DNA of 42,965 nt from Halorubrum kocurii JCM 14978 (GTDB lineage Archaea; Halobacteriota; Halobacteria; Halobacteriales; Haloferacaceae), in the NCBI RefSeq assembly GCF_000337355.1, contig NZ_AOJH01000072.1, positions 1 through 42,965 of the forward strand, read 5' to 3'. The notes beneath the pieces are model-generated. The model did no database searches. It saw nothing but the letters and a program-made list of their open reading frames with translations, and was not told the origin of the DNA. Of this stretch, positions 6,876-16,413 are shown piece after piece (position 1 is the stretch's first letter; the number at the start of each line of letters is the position of its first letter). Position numbers and translations under genes: made by a program.

Positions 6876-7703
6876 TCAATCACTTCCAACAAAATCATCG
6901 CCAAATGCCTCTTCTGCGCTCGAAGCTGCGATCTCCGACGCAACTCCATCTTCACCTGCTTGGTCGCGCGTGAACACGCCAACCCCGTCGACTCCGATCC
7001 CGACGATTTCGACCCCGTTCTTTCCCCATCCGAAATCTTTCGGACGCAGTTCCTCGCCAGTGGGCCTCTCATCCGATTCAGTCGACTCAATAGATCCCTT
7101 CCCACTCTTGCCGGGTCCACGAATATAGGCTCTCGCATCGATGCCGTCCCCGCTTTCTGTCTCTATCTTCACCTTCCCATTATTCAGAAAGATCACCTGA
7201 GTTCCCACATCGTCTTCCTCTGCGGCCGTACACCTGAACTCGAACGTGCGTGTTTTGTTGACAGTAGCACCACCGGCGTCCCCTACGAATATGAGTGTAA
7301 CCGAGGTCGACTTCGTCTTCTCCGTTTCACATGTGACGGCGACGAATGCCTTCTCACCTGGTATGAGATCGATTCGCTTCTCGTCACCGGTTTCGAGTGA
7401 GTCACCGATCGCTATTCGCTCAATTACCTCCCCTCTGTCTTCGAGCGTTATCGTCAGGGAGAGTCTGTTAGCAAACTTGTTCGTGATTCGTACGAGTTCC
7501 GTTTCCGTGCCACCCTCCACGATCTCGTCGTCTTCCCCTTCGTTTGCTGTGAGATCTTTCAGTCCCAGATACGCGTGCTCGTCCTCGACGACGTTCACCT
7601 CCACGCCGCGATCGGCCTCGACGCTGCTGAACGCACCGGTGCCGACGCTCATCGCACCGGAGCTCGCGCCGCCGAGCAGCAGGATCGCGTGTCGTCGTTT
7701 CAT
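6876..7703 (-). CDS. secreted SipW/TasA-like surface protein (DUF1102-like) 1
   Basis: A 275-residue exported protein. The N-terminus MKRRHAILLLGGASSGAMSV has a basic start and a hydrophobic core, followed by GTGAFSSVEADRGVEVNV and the strand HAYLGL. This pattern recurs in three genes nearby and matches the SipW-dependent signal type of TasA/camelysin-like proteins and archaeal DUF1102. The mature part is beta-rich, with conserved-looking RITNKFANRLSL (about 74-85) and LIPGEKAFVAVTC. A Gly-rich, acidic C-terminal third is absent from the paralogues. Two cysteines occur in the mature region. A GTG at 7730 is an alternative start that fits the TATA box at about 7752-7762. Codon use is A/T-richer than in flanking genes. 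Confidence 0.72.
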   Translation of the reverse strand: MKRRHAILLLGGASSGAMSVGTGAFSSVEADRGVEVNVVEDEHAYLGLKDLTANEGEDDEIVEGGTETELVRITNKFANRLSLTITLEDRGEVIERIAIGDSLETGDEKRIDLIPGEKAFVAVTCETEKTKSTSVTLIFVGDAGGATVNKTRTFEFRCTAAEEDDVGTQVIFLNNGKVKIETESGDGIDARAYIRGPGKSGKGSIESTESDERPTGEELRPKDFGWGKNGVEIVGIGVDGVGVFTRDQAGEDGVASEIAASSAEEAFGDDFVGSD

Positions 7704-7751
7704 GTCCACTGGGGTTCGCTCGTCGCTCACTCGCCACAACGCGTTCCGACC

Positions 7752-7762
7752 CTAAGGTTATG
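7752..7762 (-). promoter_or_regulatory. TATA box of secreted protein 1
   Basis: GCATAACCTTA on the minus strand, between the wHTH gene and secreted protein 1. Its centre is about 27 bases from a GTG at 7730 and 54 from the ATG at 7703. Either the protein starts at the GTG or the mRNA has a leader of roughly 28 bases. Confidence 0.4.
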
Positions 7763-7804
7763 CGGCGCCGGAAACTCGGTACGCGGCGCTTGAAACCCGT
7801 TGCC

Positions 7805-8386
7805 TTACGTCAGTTCCGGTGGCTCTTCCGGTTCGCCGACCTTCATCTCCGCGGTGTAGTACTTGTGCGTGATCGCGGAGAACGAGAACGCCACGACGAT
7901 CGCGACCATCCACGCCATGTCGGGCAGCAGGACGAACGGCCACGCGTCCAGCGCCACCGCGCCGGTGAGCGCGACGGCGACGCCCGAGAGCCCGAGATAG
8001 TACGTGCTCCACGGGATCTCCCTCCCCTCGACGACGTCCATGTACACGTCGATGTCGGTCAGGGCCGGCGTCGGCTCGACCATGCCGCGGTCCTTGTTGA
8101 AGTCGATGACGCCCGCCTTGTCCATCTTCGGCAGGTGCGACTGCTGGAGCGCGGTGTACACGCGCTTGCGCTCGTTGCCCGTGATCTCCGCCGTGTCGAT
8201 CCCGTTCTCCCACGCCGCGATCTGTTCGGCCATGTCGCCGATCGCGACCGCGTCGTCCTCCTCCCGCTTCAGCAGGTGGACCGCGAACCGCCGCCGCTGG
8301 TTCGCTAACACGTCGAAGAGCTCGTCCTCGGAGATGTCTGTCGCCGGTTCTGCACCTCCCCCGTCTACCTGTTGCACCGACGCCAT
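7805..8386 (-). CDS. winged-helix membrane regulator (DUF7344-like)
   Basis: A 193-residue protein from MASVQQVDGGG. The N-terminal half is a haloarchaeal winged-helix domain: ISEDELFDVLANQRRRFAVH, an IGDMAEQIAAWENG helix, and recognition helix and wing in NERKRVYTALQQSHLPKMDK with AGVIDFNKDRG. Two membrane helices follow (about 125-145 and 150-172), so it would be a membrane-tethered DNA-binding protein. The downstream ATG (8386) is preferred to the one at 8401 because the TATA box at 8415-8424 predicts transcription starting near 8392. It lies beside and in the same direction as secreted protein 1 and divergent from three more, so it is the obvious local regulator candidate. That role is inferred from position only. 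Confidence 0.78.
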   Translation of the reverse strand: MASVQQVDGGGAEPATDISEDELFDVLANQRRRFAVHLLKREEDDAVAIGDMAEQIAAWENGIDTAEITGNERKRVYTALQQSHLPKMDKAGVIDFNKDRGMVEPTPALTDIDVYMDVVEGREIPWSTYYLGLSGVAVALTGAVALDAWPFVLLPDMAWMVAIVVAFSFSAITHKYYTAEMKVGEPEEPPELT

Positions 8387-8414
8387 TTCTGTCAGACACA
8401 TATGAGCACGCCAA

Positions 8415-8424
8415 CATAAATCCC
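8415..8424 (-). promoter_or_regulatory. TATA box of the wHTH regulator
   Basis: GGGATTTATG on the minus strand, about 30 bases before the ATG at 8386 and only about 18 before the alternative ATG at 8401, which favours the downstream start. Confidence 0.45.
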
Positions 8425-8847
8425 GTGGTTATGATACCCAGCTAAACTTTCTCGACGTTCAAACAATGGCTGTCGAAGTCGCGCTAGCTCCCGTTATAAG
8501 CCGTCTAAAACCGACAATACGGGGTTCTCGGTGGGTAGCGACGCCGGGATCTCGCTCCCCGTTTCTCAGGTTGTATCAGTTTGACTATCATTGAAACCGC
8601 AACGATTGCCGGTTCAGGACGGGCCTGAACGTGTCCCGAGTGGGTCTCAGACCGAGCCTGAAGCGATCGGATCGGGATTCAGGCAGAGGCGGAACCCGCC
8701 GGTCGGATCTTCAGCCTCGCCCGGAACTGTTTCTGGAAATTCATAACGATATTGGATAGGCCCCATGGGTGTAGTAGAGCGACCCCGGGTGACGCGGGAT
8801 GTCCCGCGTCGGCGGCCCGCGGGTCGTGTGCGGACACTGAGACACCT
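8425..8847. other. 423-bp divergent intergenic region
   Basis: This gap separates the divergent wHTH gene and the tandem secreted-protein genes. I see no convincing gene. It holds A/T-rich patches (TTATAAGCC near 8514; ATAACGATATTGG near 8741-8753, a possible promoter for the tandem genes) and a strong hairpin at 8791-8810. It probably carries the control elements for both directions. Confidence 0.5.
8791..8810. promoter_or_regulatory. inverted repeat in the leader of the tandem secreted-protein genes
   Basis: GACGCGGGA and TCCCGCGTC are perfect 9-bp complements separated by TG. The repeat lies 38-57 bases before the ATG at 8848. If transcription begins near the A/T-rich block at about 8741-8753, it lies inside the 5' leader as an RNA hairpin; otherwise it could be a DNA operator. 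Confidence 0.45.
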
Positions 8848-9411
8848 ATGACAAACCGACGCAAGTTCATGGCCGGATTGGGTGCATTGGCATCAGGAAG
8901 CGCAGCAGCAATAGGTACTGGCGCGTTCTCGAGTGTTGAGGCCGAGCGTGATGTCACCGTTGAGGTTGGCGGAGACAACAGCGCGTACCTCGGACTAGAG
9001 GCAGAGCGCGACGACATCATTAGCGACGACGGTGGCGACGGGCAGCTTAGCCTTGATCTCGGTTCACAGACGACAAAGGAAGGTGGTGACGGGTTCAATC
9101 AGGACGCCGAGACGGAAATTGATGGTGTGTTCAAGATCATCAACCAGGGAACTGAAACCGTCTTCGCTGGATTCTCCGGAAATCCCGACGACTATCTCCC
9201 GTTCGCAGGTATCGAGCCTACTGCGGAACCGATTGCCGGCGTCGAACTTGAGGTTCAGAATTCAACAAACGTTGAGGGAGATATCATCGATGGCGCCGAG
9301 CTTGAACCAGGTGACAGCACGCTCGTTGATGTGACAGTCGACACCCTGAACGAAGATCCAGAAGAGGAGAGCGGAGAAGTGGTTATCGGAGCACTCGTGG
9401 AGGACTACTAA
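8848..9411 (+). CDS. secreted SipW/TasA-like surface protein (DUF1102-like) 2
   Basis: A 187-residue exported protein and first of three tandem paralogues. The N-terminus reads MTNRRKFMAGLGALASGSAA, then GTGAFSSVEAERDVTVEVGG and SAYLGL. The twin arginine looks like a Tat signal, but the conserved block after the hydrophobic core is the SipW-type pattern. The acidic mature domain appears all-beta, with FKIINQGTETVFAGF (the family's N-Q-G-T turn), GAELEPGDSTLVDVTV, and a C-terminal strand GEVVIGALVEDY that could serve as a donor strand if these polymerise. The ATG at 8848 is chosen over upstream in-frame codons because it starts the signal peptide. Its stop is two bases from the next start, so they are co-transcribed. 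Visibly A/T-richer than neighbouring housekeeping genes. Confidence 0.78.
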   Translation: MTNRRKFMAGLGALASGSAAAIGTGAFSSVEAERDVTVEVGGDNSAYLGLEAERDDIISDDGGDGQLSLDLGSQTTKEGGDGFNQDAETEIDGVFKIINQGTETVFAGFSGNPDDYLPFAGIEPTAEPIAGVELEVQNSTNVEGDIIDGAELEPGDSTLVDVTVDTLNEDPEEESGEVVIGALVEDY

Positions 9412-9413
9412 CA

Positions 9414-9974
9414 ATGAACCGACGTAAGTTCATCATCGGTGCGAGTACGGTGGCAACAGGTAGTGCTGCGGCAGTTGGTACGGGAGCATTCTCAAGCGCA
9501 TCGGCAGATCGAAGCGTTAGTGTCGAAGTCGCTGACGACGCCAGCGCGTACCTCGCGATAGAGTCGGATAGCCAGTACGCTGACGAGAGTGGTGACGCGC
9601 TCGAGCTGGACTTCGGTGCGCTGGTTGAGGATGAAGATGGAAACGAACTCGGTTCCAACGTCGGTGAAAATTCAACCATCGTCTTTGGAAGCGGTGCTGC
9701 AGATAGAAACGTATTCACCGTTCAGAACCAGGGTACCAAAAATGTCGAACTGACGCCTGGACAGCAAGTGAAATATTTCGATAGTGGTGGGAATGAAGTC
9801 GGAGAGGAAAGCGATGATATTGAATTGTTGATTAATATTGTGATTGGTTCCGCAGCTGCCACCCCTAAGTTGGAACCTGGTGACACGGCAGGTTACTTCG
9901 TACAAGTTTCTACTGGGGATAGCCCCCCGAGTCAGCTTGAGACCGCGTTCGAAATCAACGCGAACAAAGTCTGA
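9414..9974 (+). CDS. secreted SipW/TasA-like surface protein (DUF1102-like) 3
   Basis: A 186-residue paralogue of the preceding protein. It has MNRRKFIIGASTVATGSAAA, then GTGAFSSASADRSVSVEVAD and SAYLAI. The mature domain carries the same landmarks: FTVQNQGTKNVELTPG (about 102-117), LEPGDTAGYFVQVSTG, and an end strand FEINANKV. It has no cysteines, no membrane anchor, and a strongly acidic composition. It begins two bases after the previous stop and ends 28 bases before the next paralogue. Duplication within the cluster, rather than independent arrival, best explains the shared order of motifs. Function is inferred only from family resemblance. Confidence 0.77.
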   Translation: MNRRKFIIGASTVATGSAAAVGTGAFSSASADRSVSVEVADDASAYLAIESDSQYADESGDALELDFGALVEDEDGNELGSNVGENSTIVFGSGAADRNVFTVQNQGTKNVELTPGQQVKYFDSGGNEVGEESDDIELLINIVIGSAAATPKLEPGDTAGYFVQVSTGDSPPSQLETAFEINANKV

Positions 9975-9978
9975 AACT

Positions 9979-9987
9979 TGTATAAAG
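9979..9987 (+). promoter_or_regulatory. possible TATA box before secreted protein 4
   Basis: TGTATAAAG in the 28-bp gap after secreted protein 3, about 20 bases before the ATG at 10003. This would allow separate transcription of the third tandem paralogue. The spacing is a little short, so co-transcription is also possible. Confidence 0.35.
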
Positions 9988-10002
9988 CCCCACACCTAAA
10001 TT

Positions 10003-10581
10003 ATGAAACGACGCACGTTCGTACTCGGTCTGGGCACGACGGCTACTGGTGCCGGTACGCTGATCGGTAGTGGGGCGTTCTCGAGCGCCGAAGCAGAGCG
10101 AACGGTTAGCGTCGAGACCGCTGACGATGATGACGCGTACTTAGCGTTGATCAAAGGCGAAGGCGCTACTGATGATAGGGCCTACAGAGACGATGGACAA
10201 CTGAACTTCACCTTCCCCGGCCTACGGGAGAGAACTGATGGGCCAATCGACACTAATCCAGAGAATCCCGAAGGACTCGGAGAAGACTCAGTTTACCGAT
10301 TCGGGAGTGAAACTGACGGGGATCCGTTGTTCTTCTCGAGAAACCAGGGAACTCGGACGATCGAACTGTACAGTCGGCAGAATGATACAGAAGGTCTCCC
10401 ACACGTTCAAATATTCAACGTGAACACGGGGGACCTCCTCACCGGAGACGGTACTAGAGCAGTCCTTGAAACTGGTGACTCGGTGCCACTCGGCCTTCAG
10501 ATCGATACGACGGGGGTTGACGCACAAGAGAGTGCGTATAGCATATCGCTGACAATTGTTGGCAAAGCAACGGAACAATAG
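10003..10581 (+). CDS. secreted SipW/TasA-like surface protein (DUF1102-like) 4
   Basis: A 192-residue paralogue, third of the tandem set. It has MKRRTFVLGLGTTATGAGTL, then GSGAFSSAEAERTVSVETAD and DAYLAL. The mature domain keeps the layout: FSRNQGTRTIELYSRQ with the N-Q-G-T turn, VLETGDSVPLGLQIDTTG, and the C-terminal strand YSISLTIVGKATEQ. It differs from the others in a loop rich in Asn and Pro (about 84-98). No cysteine and no anchor. The DNA is again A/T-richer than the genome around it. It is followed by 276 bp without a convincing gene. Confidence 0.77.
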   Translation: MKRRTFVLGLGTTATGAGTLIGSGAFSSAEAERTVSVETADDDDAYLALIKGEGATDDRAYRDDGQLNFTFPGLRERTDGPIDTNPENPEGLGEDSVYRFGSETDGDPLFFSRNQGTRTIELYSRQNDTEGLPHVQIFNVNTGDLLTGDGTRAVLETGDSVPLGLQIDTTGVDAQESAYSISLTIVGKATEQ

Positions 10582-10857
10582 CCAATATAACTCCCCGGGT
10601 TGACGAAACGGAAGAACGCGATTCCGTCTTCGCCTTCTCTGTCGACTCTTGAACTATTGATAGCTTCACACCGATCCGACTCCGCTGGTAGGAATTCAGC
10701 GAGAGACACTGAAGTGGCGATTCTAATTATTGGAACGTATTCTGAGGGGAATCATGCCGTTCGCCTGGCTGACATCTCGTTACAGGAAATCCCTTCAGTC
10801 GTTTCAAGCACCGCGTTATCAAGACCCTACAGGTACAAAGAGGGGTAGACGCAGCCT

Positions 10858-12450
10858 ATGCCCACCGCCCGCCGCACCCTGACCCTCGCCCTACTCCTCG
10901 TAGCCGCAGGGTCGCTCGCGTTCGCCACGGGTGCGGCGGTGATCGACGGTCCGGCCGATACCGTCGCAGATGGCGACCTCGCGGTCCAGCCGGCCGACGG
11001 CCCGAACGGGAAGTACGCCTACCTGAACGACGACGACGAGATCGCGATCGACGTCTCGGCGTCGAATCCGAACATCAAGGACCCCTCCTTCGAGGGCGTC
11101 AACGTCGGAACGACCGGGACGATAGACGACGTGTTCACCGTCACGTACACGGCCGACGAATACGCGCACGTGTGGATCGAGTACGCGAGCGAGAACGTCA
11201 CCTTCGTCGCCGACGGCGGCTCGATCGAGGGCGAGGCGAACAACGTCACGCTCGCGCCGAACGAGACGGTCACGGTCGGCCTCGCGCTCGACACGCGCGG
11301 CGCGACCGCCGGGACGCAGCTGGGCGCCGACGAGTTCTCGATCGAGGCGAAGATCGCTGAGCCCGACGAGATGGAGGGAACGGGCGCGTCGACACAGCAG
11401 ACCGCCGACGGCGGCCCGACCACGACGGTCACTTCGCCGAGCGCGGACCGCCGTGAGTTCGTCGCGAGCGGCGTTGAGCGCGGCGAGGGGGTCCGGTTCC
11501 TCGCCGAGGGGATGGAGATCGCCGGCGACGACGTCACGCTCGAAGGGATCGACCTGGAGGGCGTCCGGAACGAGCGCGTCGAACTGAACGCCGCAGGGAG
11601 TCCGGACCCCTTCGCGAACGGGAGCGCGCTGACCGCGCCGACTGAACCCCGGCCGGTCGGGTACCTCTCGCTCGACTACGACTTCGCGCCCGACGCGGTC
11701 GACGCGATGACGATCCGGTTCAGCGCGGACCCGGCCTACCTCAACGCGACCGGGACCGACCCCGAGGACGTGACGCTCTACCGGCAGACCGACGCGGGCG
11801 ACTGGGAGGAGGAGCCCGTCGAGGTCGTCGACGAGGAAGTCGTCCGGATCCTGGGACTTCCCGAGGACCGCATCCACTTCCGCGCAACGACCGAGACGTC
11901 GTCGACGTTCGCGGTCGCGGCGCGCGAGCCCCGGTTCGATGTGACCGAAACGACACTCGAGACCCCGGCGATCGACCCCGGCGAGGCGGCGACCGTCCGA
12001 GCGACCCTGCGGAACGGCGGCGGCGCGGCCGGCGAGCGGACGGTGACGCTGACCGCCGACGGCGACCCGGTCGCGAACGAGACGGTCGTGCTGGCGCCGA
12101 ACGAGACCGCCACGGTCGTGCTCTCGAGCGCGTTCGAGACCCCGGGCGAGTACGGTCTCGCGGTCGACGGAACGGACGCCGGGACCCTGCTGGTCGGTGA
12201 CCCCGCGGACGGCGGCGGCTCCGGGGATGACGCGGGGATCGGAACGGGGTCGGGAACCGCCGGCGACGCGGGGGACGGCGGCGCGCAGGACGGTGACGGC
12301 GACGGAGACGACGGAGCGACAGGAGAATCGGGGACCGGACCGACCGAGGAGCCGAGCGCCATTGACCTCCTCGAGCTCGGCGGCCTGCTCGCGCTCGTGG
12401 CGATCTCCGCCGCTGGGATCGCGCTCGTCCGCCGACTGCCTCGCTCGTGA
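10858..12450 (+). CDS. membrane-anchored surface protein with TasA-like first domain
   Basis: A 530-residue exported protein. A signal peptide (1-27, ending FATGAAV) is followed by a domain (about 50-160) containing KYAYLNDDDEIAIDVS, VFTVTYTADEYAHVWIEYAS and LAPNETVTVGLALDTRG, the strand and turn order of the small secreted proteins. Then comes an Ig-like region (about 195-355) resembling the PGF-pre-PGF/surface-glycoprotein type, then a CARDB-like adhesion fold (about 360-445: TVRATLRNGGGAAGERTV). An acidic Gly/Asp linker precedes a C-terminal membrane helix (about 500-522) with a basic cytoplasmic end (RRLPRS). Several N-x-S/T sites occur. It could anchor a fibre of the small proteins to the cell; that role is inference. 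Composition returns to high GC here. Confidence 0.68.
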   Translation: MPTARRTLTLALLLVAAGSLAFATGAAVIDGPADTVADGDLAVQPADGPNGKYAYLNDDDEIAIDVSASNPNIKDPSFEGVNVGTTGTIDDVFTVTYTADEYAHVWIEYASENVTFVADGGSIEGEANNVTLAPNETVTVGLALDTRGATAGTQLGADEFSIEAKIAEPDEMEGTGASTQQTADGGPTTTVTSPSADRREFVASGVERGEGVRFLAEGMEIAGDDVTLEGIDLEGVRNERVELNAAGSPDPFANGSALTAPTEPRPVGYLSLDYDFAPDAVDAMTIRFSADPAYLNATGTDPEDVTLYRQTDAGDWEEEPVEVVDEEVVRILGLPEDRIHFRATTETSSTFAVAAREPRFDVTETTLETPAIDPGEAATVRATLRNGGGAAGERTVTLTADGDPVANETVVLAPNETATVVLSSAFETPGEYGLAVDGTDAGTLLVGDPADGGGSGDDAGIGTGSGTAGDAGDGGAQDGDGDGDDGATGESGTGPTEEPSAIDLLELGGLLALVAISAAGIALVRRLPRS

Positions 12451-12498
12451 GCCCCCCTCATCGACAGGTCTTACTCGCCGCTCCGCGAGGGTCGGAGC

Positions 12499-13404
12499 GT
12501 GACGGTCTCCTCGAAGGCGCGGGGCGACAAGCCCGCGGCGGAATCGGACGCCGACGGCTCCGGGTTCGGTCGCGAACTGGCCGCGCGGGTCCGGCTCGTC
12601 GACCTGCTCGCGCTGGCGGCGGTCCCCGCGGTCCTCGCCGCCGTCTTCGCGCTCCCCGAGTCGACCCGCCGGTCGCTCGCGTTCGCGTACGCCGACCCGA
12701 CGGTACGCACCGCGTTCACGGCCCACTACGTCCACCTCGACACGGGGCACCTCGCCGGCAATGTCGCCGGGTACGGCCTCCTCGCCGGCGTCGGGTACGC
12801 GCTCGCGGTGCTGGCGGGGTATCGGCGGTTCTTCGTGGTCGCGTTCGCGACGTTCCTGCTGGCGTTCCCGTTCGCGCTCTCGGCGCTGAACCTCGCCGTC
12901 CCCCGGAACGCGATCGGCTTCGGCTTCTCCGGGATCAACATGGCGTTCGCCGGCCTCCTTCCGCTCCTGCTCGGCGTGTACGCCCGCGAGCGGTTCTTCC
13001 CGGGGGGCTCGCTCAGCGCGCTCCCCGCGGCGTTCTTCCCGCTCGTCGGCTGGATGGCGCTCTTGGCGCTGCCCGTCTCGCCGGGGTCCCTCGACGGCTC
13101 GGGGCTGGCCGGGCTCGCGACGGCCGTCGCCGGGGTCCTTCTCGGACTGCTGTACGCGTCGAGCACCGGGATCCGGGTCCGGAGGGCGCTCCGGGCGTCG
13201 AGCCGCGCCGCGGTCTCGAACCCGGGCTACGGCGACCTGTTCGCGGTCGGCGTCGTCGTGGTCGTCGGCTACCCGGTCGTCGGGTTCCCCGGCGATCCGG
13301 CGGGACCGGGCAGCGTGGTGAACCTCTACGTTCACCTGCTCGGCTTCTGTCTCGCGTTCATCGGCCCCTTCGGGCTACTCGCCGCCGGGGTGTTCGAGGA
13401 GTGA
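12499..13404 (+). CDS. rhomboid-like intramembrane serine protease
   Basis: A 301-residue polytopic protein with six or seven helices. Rhomboid hallmarks are present: HLDTGHLAGNVAGYG (His84 and Asn88 match the TM2 H-x3-N motif), catalytic GFSG with Ser144 in GFGFSGINMAFAG, and a late-helix histidine (His279 in NLYVHLLGF) as the dyad base. The fold departs somewhat from standard GlpG. Rhomboids cut membrane-anchored proteins inside or beside the helix; in Haloferax a rhomboid affects S-layer glycoprotein maturation. The GTG start lies 48 bases after the anchored surface protein gene, so that protein is a plausible substrate. The start is not certain, since the N-terminal 25 residues are low complexity. 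Confidence 0.75.
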   Translation: MTVSSKARGDKPAAESDADGSGFGRELAARVRLVDLLALAAVPAVLAAVFALPESTRRSLAFAYADPTVRTAFTAHYVHLDTGHLAGNVAGYGLLAGVGYALAVLAGYRRFFVVAFATFLLAFPFALSALNLAVPRNAIGFGFSGINMAFAGLLPLLLGVYARERFFPGGSLSALPAAFFPLVGWMALLALPVSPGSLDGSGLAGLATAVAGVLLGLLYASSTGIRVRRALRASSRAAVSNPGYGDLFAVGVVVVVGYPVVGFPGDPAGPGSVVNLYVHLLGFCLAFIGPFGLLAAGVFEE

Positions 13405-13491
13405 CCGCGTCGCGTCCTGCTGCGCCGCGTTGCGTCCCACCGCACCGCGCGTCCCTGGCTGTGTCCCGCCGGCGCGCTGTGCCGAACCACG

Positions 13492-13500
13492 AATTTATAA
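13492..13500 (+). promoter_or_regulatory. TATA box upstream of the signal peptidase gene
   Basis: AATTTATAA is the clearest promoter-like block between the rhomboid and signal peptidase genes. It lies about 215 bases before the ATG at 13713. Transcription from it would give a leader of roughly 190 bases containing an 8-codon reading frame (ATG 13508 to TAG 13534) and the 36-bp repeats. Confidence 0.45.
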
Positions 13501-13562
13501 CGTATCAATGACATTCTCCAGACGCTACTGGTAGGCGACGGATCGACGAACAAGCGACGATC

Positions 13563-13670
13563 GGGCGACGACTGGCGGCCGAGCGACGACCGACGGCTGG
13601 GCGACGACTGGCGGCCGAGCGACGACCGACGGCTGGGCGACGACTGGCGGCCGAGCGACGACCGGCGACC
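13563..13670. repeat. 36-bp tandem repeat, three units, before the signal peptidase gene
   Basis: Units at 13563-13598, 13599-13634 and 13635-13670; the first two are identical and the third differs in its last bases. Each begins GGGCGACGACTGGCGGCC and contains GAGCGACGACC. The array sits 43 bases before the ATG at 13713 in an otherwise noncoding 308-bp gap. The unit length is a multiple of three, so an antisense repeat peptide frame is open, but I do not think it is a gene. Confidence 0.9.
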
Positions 13671-13712
13671 GGGCGACCGCGAACCGCCTCGCTAACCACC
13701 GAGACACGACCC

Positions 13713-14876
13713 ATGTCCCTCAAACGCACTCTCTCAGTAACGTTGCAGGTCGCGGCCGTGCTCGTCGTCGCCTCGCTGATCGTGGGGCAGTACCTCGGAC
13801 AGCCGGTGCTTCTGAGCTACGTCGAGACGGGGAGCATGCAGCCCGTGCTCAATCCGGGCGACGGGTTCATCGCGATCCCGGCGCCGATCGCGGGCGGGAT
13901 CGGCGTCGGCGACGTGGTGACCTTCGACGCCCAGGAGATCGAGGGCGGCGGGCTGACGACCCACCGCGTCGTCGAGGAGACGGAGCGCGGGTACGTCACG
14001 CGCGGGGACAACAACCCCTTCACGGATCAGGACGGCGGAGAGCCGGTCGTGCAGGACGCCGACGTCGTCGCGAAGGCGCTCACGGTCGGGGGGAGCGTGG
14101 TCGTCATCCCGCACCTCGGCACCGTCGCGATGGGGTTCCAGTCGGCGCTCGACTCCGCCCAGACGTGGCTGGCGGTCACGTTCGGCGTCCGGTCGTTACA
14201 GGGGACGCAGGGGCTCGCGTACATCCTCTTCGGGCTCTCGGCGGTCGCGTACGCGGTCGACTGGTACCTCGACAGCGGGCGCCGCGAGACCCGGACGCGC
14301 GACCGTTCCCGCGACGACGGCACCTCGGTGTTCGCGATCGTCGGCGTGCTCGCGCTGGTGCTGATGGCGACCGCGACCGCGGCGATGGTCGTTCCGGCCG
14401 GGACGCAGGAGTACGGCGTCGTGAGCGCCGAGTTCGAGTCCGAGAACCCGACCGTCATCGAGCGGGGCACGAGCCAGGAGCTGGAGTACGTCGTCCCCAA
14501 CGCCGGGCTGGTCCCGGTGTACGCGTACGTCACCCCGCAGAGCCCGGGGGTCGACGTCGACCCGCAGCGCGTCGCCGTCGGCGGGCGGGGCGAGGCGTCG
14601 ACGACGGTGACGCTCACGGCGCCCGACGAGACGGGGTACTACCGCCTGTTCGTCGCCGAACACCGATACCTCGCGGTGTTGCCGGCTTCGGTAATCGACG
14701 AGCTGTACGGGGTCCACCCGTGGGCTCCGCTCGTCGCGATCAACGGGCTTCTCGGCGGCGCGATCGTCGGGCTCGGGGCCCTGTTGCTCCGGGGGGAGCC
14801 CGCTCGGATCCGGTCCCGGGAATCGCGCGCCAAACCCCCGCTGTACCGCCGCGTCCTCCGCGAGATCTACAGGTGA
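13713..14876 (+). CDS. SipW-type signal peptidase I with C-terminal membrane domain
   Basis: A 387-residue type I signal peptidase of the archaeal/ER (Sec11/SipW) class. An N-terminal helix (about 7-27) leads to box B ETGSMQPVLNPGD with nucleophile Ser41, box D LTTHRVVE where His84 replaces the bacterial lysine, and box E RGDNN with Asp99. Sec11-like enzymes usually end soon after this, but here about 230 extra residues follow: a helix (about 165-185), a basic loop (RRETRTRDRSRDDG), a helix (about 204-228), a beta-sandwich-like outer domain (about 235-320), and a last helix (about 338-360). SipW enzymes process TasA-type precursors, and four candidate precursors lie within 7 kb. Its stop is followed four bases later by the next ATG, so the two are an operon. 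Confidence 0.9.
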   Translation: MSLKRTLSVTLQVAAVLVVASLIVGQYLGQPVLLSYVETGSMQPVLNPGDGFIAIPAPIAGGIGVGDVVTFDAQEIEGGGLTTHRVVEETERGYVTRGDNNPFTDQDGGEPVVQDADVVAKALTVGGSVVVIPHLGTVAMGFQSALDSAQTWLAVTFGVRSLQGTQGLAYILFGLSAVAYAVDWYLDSGRRETRTRDRSRDDGTSVFAIVGVLALVLMATATAAMVVPAGTQEYGVVSAEFESENPTVIERGTSQELEYVVPNAGLVPVYAYVTPQSPGVDVDPQRVAVGGRGEASTTVTLTAPDETGYYRLFVAEHRYLAVLPASVIDELYGVHPWAPLVAINGLLGGAIVGLGALLLRGEPARIRSRESRAKPPLYRRVLREIYR

Positions 14877-14880
14877 CCGA

Positions 14881-16203
14881 ATGAGCGAGACACCCCCTAG
14901 CGAAACCCGCCTCCGCCTTCGGGCGGTACTGAACGCACAGTTCACCCTGATCCTCGCGATCTGTCTCGTCGCCGCGGCGGTCGGCGGCGGGCTCGTCTAC
15001 GCGACCCACGTCGACCCGGGAACGACGACCGAGACCCGGACCGTCTCGTCGCTGACCGTCGAGTCGGAGTACGTCCACTCCGCCGAGGTGACCGAGCCGA
15101 ACTCGCTGTTCGACACCGGAACGGTGCTCGACGATCGGAGCACGTACTTCACGCGGGTCGCGCCCGTGCTCGACGTCGCCGTGGAGACGAGCTACGCGGC
15201 CGACGCCGCGAGCGACGTCGACGTCATCTACGAGTCGGTGCTCGTCATCCGCAACGTCGAGAGCGAAGGGGACACCGTCTACTGGGACGAGCGGGAGACG
15301 CTGACGACCGAGACGGTCTCCGGGGTCGAGCCCGGCGAGACGGCGGCCGTGTCGTTCGCGCTCAACAGCACCGAGATCGACGCGACGGCGAGCGAGATAG
15401 AGTCGGACCTCGGCGCTTCGCCCGGCGAGACGGAGACGTTCGTCGCGACGGACGTGACCGTCGAGGGCGCGATCAACGGCGAGTCGACCTCGAACGCGCG
15501 GACGATCGAGATGACGATCGATCACGGCGGCGACACGTACAGCGTCTCGGAGCCGGGGGTCCAGTCGGACACGACTGAACAGACCGAGCAGGTCGCCGTC
15601 GAGCGGAGCTACGGACCGCTCCGCTCCGCGGGCGGACCGCTACTGCTCCTCCTCGGGCTCGCCGGGACGGGAGGGCTGGCGTACGCCCGCCGGGAGGCCG
15701 GGCTCGCGCTCACGCCGGCCGAGCGCGAGTACCTCTCGTACCGCGACGACCGCGCCGAGTTCGCCGAGTGGATCACGGCGATCCGGCTCCCCGAGTCGGT
15801 TCACGAGCGCCCAGAGGCCGAGGCGTCGACCCTCGCTGACCTCGTCGACTTCGCGATCGACAACGACACCGGCGTCGTCGAGGACCCGGCGACGGACGCG
15901 TACCACGCCGTGACCGACGAGTTCGTGTACACCTACACCCCGCCGGCGCTCGCCGTCGGACGCGGTGCCGGAGACGAGACGACCGAGGGAGAAGCGGCGG
16001 CAGGCGCGGTCGCCCCCGACGACGGGGCGGAGCCGGCCGACGTCGGCGAGGCGGGAACCGGCTCGACGGGGATCGACGACGACGTGACCCTCGCCGGCGC
16101 GTGGACGCGGGCCGGACACGACCCGGGGACCGTCCCCAGGGATCGGTTGTCGACTCCGGGGCGGAGGGAGTCGGGGTCGCCGCCGAGAGGCGAGGAAAAG
16201 TAA
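14881..16203 (+). CDS. DUF5305-type membrane protein linked to SipW
   Basis: A 440-residue protein. A cytoplasmic N-terminus with basic residues is followed by a helix (about 20-42), then a long outer domain (about 45-245, beta-rich, many Thr/Ser/Glu; SLTVESEYVHSAEVTEPNSL and YFTRVAPVLDVAVETSY), a second helix (about 250-268), and a cytoplasmic C-terminal region (YLSYRDDRAEFAEWITA and a disordered acidic tail). This matches haloarchaeal DUF5305 proteins as I remember them, which often sit beside SipW-like peptidases. The role is unknown. Its close coupling to the peptidase (four-base gap) suggests an assembly or secretion partner. Confidence 0.75.
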   Translation: MSETPPSETRLRLRAVLNAQFTLILAICLVAAAVGGGLVYATHVDPGTTTETRTVSSLTVESEYVHSAEVTEPNSLFDTGTVLDDRSTYFTRVAPVLDVAVETSYAADAASDVDVIYESVLVIRNVESEGDTVYWDERETLTTETVSGVEPGETAAVSFALNSTEIDATASEIESDLGASPGETETFVATDVTVEGAINGESTSNARTIEMTIDHGGDTYSVSEPGVQSDTTEQTEQVAVERSYGPLRSAGGPLLLLLGLAGTGGLAYARREAGLALTPAEREYLSYRDDRAEFAEWITAIRLPESVHERPEAEASTLADLVDFAIDNDTGVVEDPATDAYHAVTDEFVYTYTPPALAVGRGAGDETTEGEAAAGAVAPDDGAEPADVGEAGTGSTGIDDDVTLAGAWTRAGHDPGTVPRDRLSTPGRRESGSPPRGEEK

Positions 16204-16237: not shown

Positions 16238-16310
16238 AGTCCCGTGGTGTAGTGGCCAATCATAATGGCCTTTGGAGCCATTGACGGCGGTTCGAATCCG
16301 CCCGGGACTA
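16238..16310 (+). tRNA. tRNA-Gln (anticodon TTG)
   Basis: A complete 73-nt cloverleaf. The acceptor stem AGTCCCG (16238-16244) pairs with CGGGACT (16303-16309), with A as discriminator. The anticodon stem ATGGC/GCCAT encloses the loop CTTTGGA, so the anticodon is TTG, reading CAA (glutamine). The T arm GCGG-TTCGAAT-CCGC is perfect. No intron and no encoded CCA. Its 3' end is duplicated 101 bases downstream. Confidence 0.95.
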
Positions 16311-16413
16311 CTGTGCGCCGAACACGCCCGTGAGGCGCACATATCCTCAGCGGTTCGAACCCAGAGGACGAGAGGATTCGAGTCCTCGCGGTTCGAATCC
16401 GCCCGGGACTACT
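16287..16413. repeat. duplicated tRNA-Gln 3' end, possible att scar
   Basis: A 26-bp block covering the T arm, the 3' acceptor strand, the discriminator and three further bases (16287-16312) recurs exactly at 16388-16413. Between the copies lie two more T-arm-like pieces: AGCGGTTCGAACCC near 16358, and a perfect small hairpin GAGGATTCGAGTCCTC at about 16372-16387. Direct repeats of a tRNA 3' end are the usual attL/attR pattern of integrase-borne elements. Only about 75 bp remain between the copies and no integrase is visible, so this would be a deleted element or nested scars. Confidence 0.6.

Follow-up and report, generated by a model that had tools for sequence, protein, structure and literature searches.

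What does Halorubrum kocurii assemble at its surface with a compact set of nine genes that supplies its own precursors, signal peptidase, anchor and rhomboid protease? The question arises from a 42,965-nucleotide stretch of DNA of strain JCM 14978 (contig NZ_AOJH01000072.1 of assembly GCF_000337355.1; hereafter the window), in which all nine genes are found between positions 6876 and 16203. We propose, with a probability of roughly 80%, that this locus encodes a Tafi-type pilus, or twin-arginine translocation (Tat) fimbria, which is a sister of the canonical tafA-F system and works as proposed below. It belongs to a broad Tafi superfamily in two respects: its pilins are homologous to the solved Tafi pilin 9P0A, and counterparts of the winged helix-turn-helix (wHTH) protein, the SipW-like peptidase, TafC, TafE, TafF and DUF5305 stand together in one locus. 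The Tafi-type fibre system as a kind has been known since 2025. The novelty lies in a divergent sister version, conserved in Halorubrum and outside the NCBIfam cut-offs, whose pilin cassette is apparently exchanged and whose anchor bears a tail that may be specific to the rhomboid.

The genes and features are given by window position and strand (TM, transmembrane helix; GC3, G+C fraction at third codon positions; aa, amino acids).

6876..7703, minus: P0001, Tat/SipW-type pilin-like protein of 275 aa with a long C-terminal extension, in a TafC-like position beside the wHTH gene
7805..8401, minus: P0002, DUF7344 wHTH protein (Pfam PF24035, 104 bits) with C-terminal hydrophobic (membrane) segments
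8848..9411, plus: P0003, Tat-type pilin with NCBIfam and PDB profile matches; AlphaFold model m2811974d8073, fold matches to FimA, 7UEG and 9P0A
9414..9974, plus: P0004, Tat-type pilin (PDB 9P0A, E=5.3e-13; GC3 0.50)
10003..10581, plus: P0005, Tat-type pilin with a sub-threshold NCBIfam Taf match, 94% identical to its H. yunnanense counterpart
10858..12450, plus: P0006, TafF-like anchor with a DUF1102 N-domain, further beta domains (one of them CARDB), a disordered linker and a C-terminal TM
12337..12447, plus: C-terminal tail of P0006, GPTEEPSAIDLLELGG-TM-RRLPRS, of the EEPxG[IF] type
12499..13404, plus: P0007, rhomboid-family serine protease with catalytic Ser144 (12928-12930) and His279 (13333-13335)
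13713..14876, plus: P0008, SipW/ER-type signal peptidase (ER, endoplasmic reticulum) with Ser41/His84/Asp99-Asp105 and a C-terminal extension, in a TafD-like position
14881..16203, plus: P0009, DUF5305 membrane protein (PF17231, 192 bits), proposed partner of the peptidase
8848..11900, plus, limits approximate: apparent exchange unit of P0003-P0005 and the N-terminal two thirds of the anchor gene, bounded by breaks in identity and GC3

The identity of the fibre rests above all on its subunits. A preliminary description of this DNA had picked out four small secreted proteins by a common N-terminus, and all four are read where it placed them. P0001 (GTGAFSSVEADR), P0003 (GTGAFSSVEAER), P0004 (GTGAFSSASADR) and P0005 (GSGAFSSAEAER) each carry these residues after a Tat-type RR motif, so that the shared pattern is RR...G[TS]GAFSS..A[DE]R running on into.V.V. 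The twin arginine is invariant across 54 aligned pilins and suggests export through the Tat pathway, and past the N-terminal strand the same proteins diverge strongly. A profile built from the 54 pilins matches PDB entry 9P0A at E=1.8e-39 over positions 2-180 of 196, that is, over nearly its full length. This entry, identified by its PDB title in the fold-search listing, is the Tafi pilus of Natrinema sp. J7-2; literature searches on the entry and on this pilus yielded no paper. Of the 215 residues of the 9P0A chain, 188 are modelled; provided that the model has no other gaps, this agrees with a mature start at Phe28 (GTGA|FSS), and for P0003 the mature protein is predicted to begin, likewise after GTGA, at Phe27 counted from Met-1 (codon 8926-8928). 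The AlphaFold model of P0003 is an all-beta sandwich (mean predicted local distance difference test score, pLDDT, 72), and its best fold matches include FimA, the P. calidifontis bundling pilus 7UEG, 9P0A and the Sulfolobus thread 7PNB, all of them donor-strand fibres. The Natrinema pilin shares the signal and the N-terminal strand with the window pilins, yet it comes from another species and locus and is just 19% identical in the structural alignment; for the two donor-strand archaeal fibres 7UEG and 7PNB the identity to P0003 is as low as 9-11%. The Sulfolobus thread subunit is described as Sec-exported (PMC9715654).

How close, then, is this locus to the system already named? According to PMC12687288, which cites Galeva et al. 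2025 (iScience 28:111793), the haloarchaeal Tat-fimbriae (tafi, tafA-F) are demonstrated fimbriae that give the gene set its name; our comparison draws on that description, NCBIfam names, the title of 9P0A and our own reading of gene order. By this reading, canonical loci run DUF5305, TafF, TafE, TafA, DUF7344 wHTH, TafC and SipW-like peptidase, and RR precursors with G[TS]GAFS, a wHTH and TafC-, SipW-, TafE-, TafF- and DUF5305-like members all recur in the window. The wHTH gene, which the preliminary description noted between the divergent units, is a regular component and no incidental gene, since a member of the DUF7344 family stands between tafA and tafC in canonical loci. The window locus differs from these in its order, with an anchor-rhomboid-SipW-DUF5305 block and up to three TafE-like pilins in a row, and in its single-TM anchor with an EEPxG tail. 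P0001 and P0003-P0006 match the TafE, TafA, TafC or TafF models of NCBIfam, all below threshold: the best scores are 59.5 bits for TafE (equivalog cut-off 155), 42.7 for TafA (190), 38.9 for TafC (410) and 49.8 for TafF (420), P0001 giving 39.7 for TafE and the 38.9 for TafC, and P0006 the 49.8 for TafF. The own genome holds no TafA match at E<=1e-12; of 293 genomes of the order, 18 carry a canonical tafA that scores over the cut-off. The tree of signal peptidases places the canonical loci in a single group and the window type in a distinct clade of 38 rows with strong support (100/99), and three genomes (G016, G020 and G021) carry both locus types. Taken together, the sub-cut-off scores, the separate peptidase clade and the genomes with both types indicate a sister system rather than canonical Tafi.

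For the processing machinery, P0008 matches the NCBIfam archaeal/ER signal peptidase profile TIGR02228 at 56 bits (cut-off 51.85), and its similarity to SipW is weak. With this profile match and a Ser-His, not Ser-Lys, dyad accompanied by Asp, the enzyme is of the SipW/ER type, as the preliminary description had held; Ser41, His84, Asp99 and Asp105 are conserved in 86 aligned sequences, except for seven rows gapped at Ser41. It is 92-96% identical to the peptidases of H. halophilum, H. salsamenti, H. lipolyticum and other named species. Among 116 well-assembled genomes of the order, in counts uncorrected for phylogeny, DUF5305 occurs in 72 and a SipW-like relative of P0008 in 73, with 72 in common, and of 99 DUF5305 genes, 95 have a SipW-like gene at most 8 kb away. 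Presence or absence together in all but one genome suggests an obligate partnership, and P0009, already noted as a DUF5305-like partner, is most likely the obligate membrane partner of P0008. The order wHTH, pilins, anchor, rhomboid, SipW and DUF5305 recurs as a syntenic block in Halorubrum, Halobellus, Haloparvum, Halobacterium, Halospeciosus and Haloarcula-type genomes, which bears out the expectation that the SipW neighbourhood would be conserved in other haloarchaea. Over the whole 3.6-Mb genome, the TafE profile has nine matches, grouped in three clusters (C72, which is the window, C82 and C40); four of the nine fall in the window, so that their grouping here is more than chance.

The anchor and the rhomboid, both recognized at the outset, raise a further question, that of how the fibre is held and released. 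P0006 scores over the Pfam cut-offs for both DUF1102 and CARDB and ends in a TM; its model (m6db9948b5fd3, pLDDT 84) comprises several beta domains together with a disordered linker and a helix at the C-terminus. A fold search with this model returned just unspecific beta-domain matches, and a PDB sequence search of P0006 gave nothing significant. P0007 has no Pfam rhomboid match, being too divergent, but its Ser in GxSG, the HxxxxHxxxN motif and the distal His are invariant in all 43 aligned relatives, which identifies it as a rhomboid protease. Directly upstream of it, the anchor closes with a tail whose consensus is EEP[SG]G[IF][DG]..LGGL-TM-RRxPRS, in which EP, G16 and RR are the same in all 22 sequences. 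Of the 67 anchor-bearing loci, 52 have a rhomboid and 46 of these show the motif, vs 1 of the 15 without rhomboid. A model of the tail gives one strong match in the own genome (66 bits; the next 20.8); in relatives that have the main locus, it also matches strongly on anchor-family proteins in or near satellite pilin clusters without their own peptidase, and further strong matches in relatives adjoin another rhomboid of the P0007 family. In bacteria, the rhombosortase / GlyGly-CTERM system likewise pairs a rhomboid-family protease with a short C-terminal tail of motif, TM and basic residues. The likeness extends to a faint profile match (TIGR03902, E=0.0039, 17.2 bits) for the P0007 relative of locus L122, but the scores are far under the cut-off of 84, P0007 itself reaching 12.9 bits. 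An archaeosortase-substrate (PGF-CTERM) identity of the P0006 tail was rejected, with 9.0 bits for TIGR04126 (cut-off 24.5), and of the known CTERM models none scores over cut-off on these tails, except on the PGF tail of L165.

The pilin genes also stand apart from their surroundings. Their GC3 is 0.50-0.61 (0.61 in P0001) vs 0.91-0.97 for the other genes of the locus and two flanking genes tested, and pilin GC3 is lower by more than 0.1 in 28 of 38 loci, a count made with a search pattern that missed some pilins. Near relatives with a peptidase identity of 92-96% have pilins about 30-45% identical to P0003-P0005 (P0005 itself about 30-40%), and their genomes hardly align to bases 9001-10500. 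In the more distant H. yunnanense, with a peptidase identity of 86%, P0003 is 78% identical and the DNA across 9001-10500 70-93%.

From these parts we propose the following mechanism. P0003-P0005, and probably P0001, would fold in the cytoplasm and leave through the Tat pathway; P0008, with P0009 as its membrane partner, would then cut them at G[TS]GA|FSS. The freed strand FSSxxAxRxVxVxV may insert into the beta-sandwich of the next subunit, giving a head-to-tail polymer, for which P0006 would serve as a cap at the fibre base, held in the membrane by its C-terminal helix. P0007 may recognize the EEPxG[IF]-TM-RRxP tail of P0006 and cut it, leading to release or transfer of the fibre, and the membrane wHTH protein P0002 is a putative regulator of the locus.

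Could the products be a biofilm matrix fibre directly related to TasA and CalY of Bacillus, as the preliminary description had suggested? Both systems have a SipW-like peptidase and beta-sandwich precursors, and one donor-strand relative, the archaeal bundling pilus, is described as TasA-like (PMC9674648); according to PMC9674648 and PMC10269814, the Bacillus TasA/SipW/TapA system has a dedicated SipW-type peptidase, a Phe just after the cleavage site and an N-terminal donor strand, all of which find likenesses here. Yet the window precursors bear Tat-type RR signals instead of ordinary ones, neither TasA nor camelysin is listed by the Pfam or PDB sequence searches or among the 50 fold matches listed, and the sequence leads directly to Tafi. 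Direct TasA membership was therefore rejected, and we regard such a matrix fibre as very unlikely. What stands of the earlier proposal is a fibre locus with a dedicated SipW, an anchor, a protease and a conserved neighbourhood, and a predicted beta-sandwich of pilin type that counts FimA and the bundling pilus among its best matches; the kinship to TasA gives way to that with Tafi. Scarcely more probable is that the four proteins act singly, as cell-surface or adhesive proteins with a signal peptide and a dedicated peptidase in common, and form no polymer. Their strong divergence past the first strand would suit this explanation, and polymer is not demonstrated for the locus; against it, the relative 9P0A is a solved pilus, donor-strand pilins need just such a conserved N-terminal strand after the cleavage site, and the related gene set owes its name to demonstrated Tat-fimbriae (PMC12687288). 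Several points weigh against our own preference for a Tafi-type pilus. No fibre has been observed from this locus, and polymerisation and cleavage are inferred; the Taf scores are so far under the equivalog cut-offs that the products may have another shape or role; confidence in the P0003 model is only moderate, and its fold matches have modest template modelling scores of about 0.3-0.5; certain SipW-like genes elsewhere have no nearby pilins or anchor. The tie between tail and rhomboid is imperfect as well, with six rhomboid loci lacking the motif and one motif locus lacking a rhomboid, and the canonical loci L157 and L164 have a nearby rhomboid gene while their TafF has no tail.

These exceptions bear on whether the rhomboid is a general membrane protease, tied to the anchor tail by nothing but the shared ancestry of one operon. 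Most tail-bearing anchors do belong to one orthologous family, the loci are not independent, and we consider this explanation a real possibility, if somewhat short of even odds. It accounts less readily for similar pre-TM tails on different rhomboid neighbours in L069 (two proteins), L071 and L171 and on a convergently transcribed 2271-aa protein of L162, for the TafF of L081, which adjoins a rhomboid and ends in an ELAGFG-type tail whereas that of L078, without rhomboid, does not, and for the single strong tail in the own genome. The trimming protease first envisaged becomes, more narrowly, a candidate dedicated rhomboid acting on the EEPxG[IF] tail of the anchor, and a dedicated pair of P0007 and this tail is plausible. 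For the pilins, the competing account is fast evolution in place, without exchange. Surface proteins often evolve fast, and low pilin GC3 recurs in most species, where it may reflect a compositional constraint. The identities nevertheless cross over: P0005 is 94% identical in H. yunnanense (peptidase 86%) and just 34% in H. salsamenti (peptidase 95%). The anchor is itself a mosaic: its identity to H. xinjiangense is 93% in the N-domain and 77% in the CARDB part, that to H. salsamenti 66% and 79%. Evolution in place is accordingly unlikely, though less so than either rival to the Tafi-type pilus. The crossover and the mosaic point to an exchanged unit that would begin with P0003 and end near 11.9 kb. 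The simplest reading, based on identity comparisons with approximate limits, is that species swap the pilins and the matching part of the anchor as a cassette, while the conserved chassis of the locus stays fixed.

These results suggest that Halorubrum, a genus common in hypersaline waters, widely carries a second, sister version of Tafi. They also propose roles for DUF5305 (partner of a SipW-like peptidase), DUF1102 (anchor), DUF7344 in the taf context and a rhomboid. The swapped pilin cassette would offer a concrete case of diversification of archaeal surface fibres, plausibly under selection by viruses or cell contact, and the rhomboid-tail pair makes substrate recognition by archaeal rhomboids directly testable. 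More tentatively, and at rather less than an even chance, we envisage an archaeal rhombosortase-like system, in which rhomboids of one family would specifically recognize an EEPxG[IFL]-TM-basic tail, not described before, on giant surface proteins and on the anchors of fibres, and would detach or transfer these proteins. The pilus on which it operates would have a pilin cassette that passes between species in the manner of an antigen or virus-receptor module.

Giant secreted proteins (>2000 aa) face or adjoin P0007-family rhomboids in L162 (3-6818 and 6849-7535), L161, L165 and L071; some of them have an EEPxG[FL] juxtamembrane tail, and they lie mostly outside canonical taf loci. The giant protein of L165 (3-6503), adjoining such a rhomboid, has at its C-terminus a PGF-CTERM tail of the classic kind (45.5 bits); signals for an archaeosortase and for a rhomboid may thus be found next to each other.

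Elsewhere in the own genome, two satellite clusters, C82:51859-53636 (L016) and C40:5615-7817 (L017), encode Tat/SipW-type pilins and a DUF7344 wHTH. No SipW, DUF5305 or rhomboid gene was found beside either, and they presumably rely on the window locus in trans. The pilin set most similar to that of the window is that of L061/L099 in Halorubrum yunnanense. None of the flanking genes tested (PurL, ABC transporter and the 17077 open reading frame) was found beside this locus, and the whole locus may thus occupy a different genomic position there. In the window, a tRNA-Gln gene (ttg; 16238-16311) lies directly downstream of the locus and is a possible recombination landmark.

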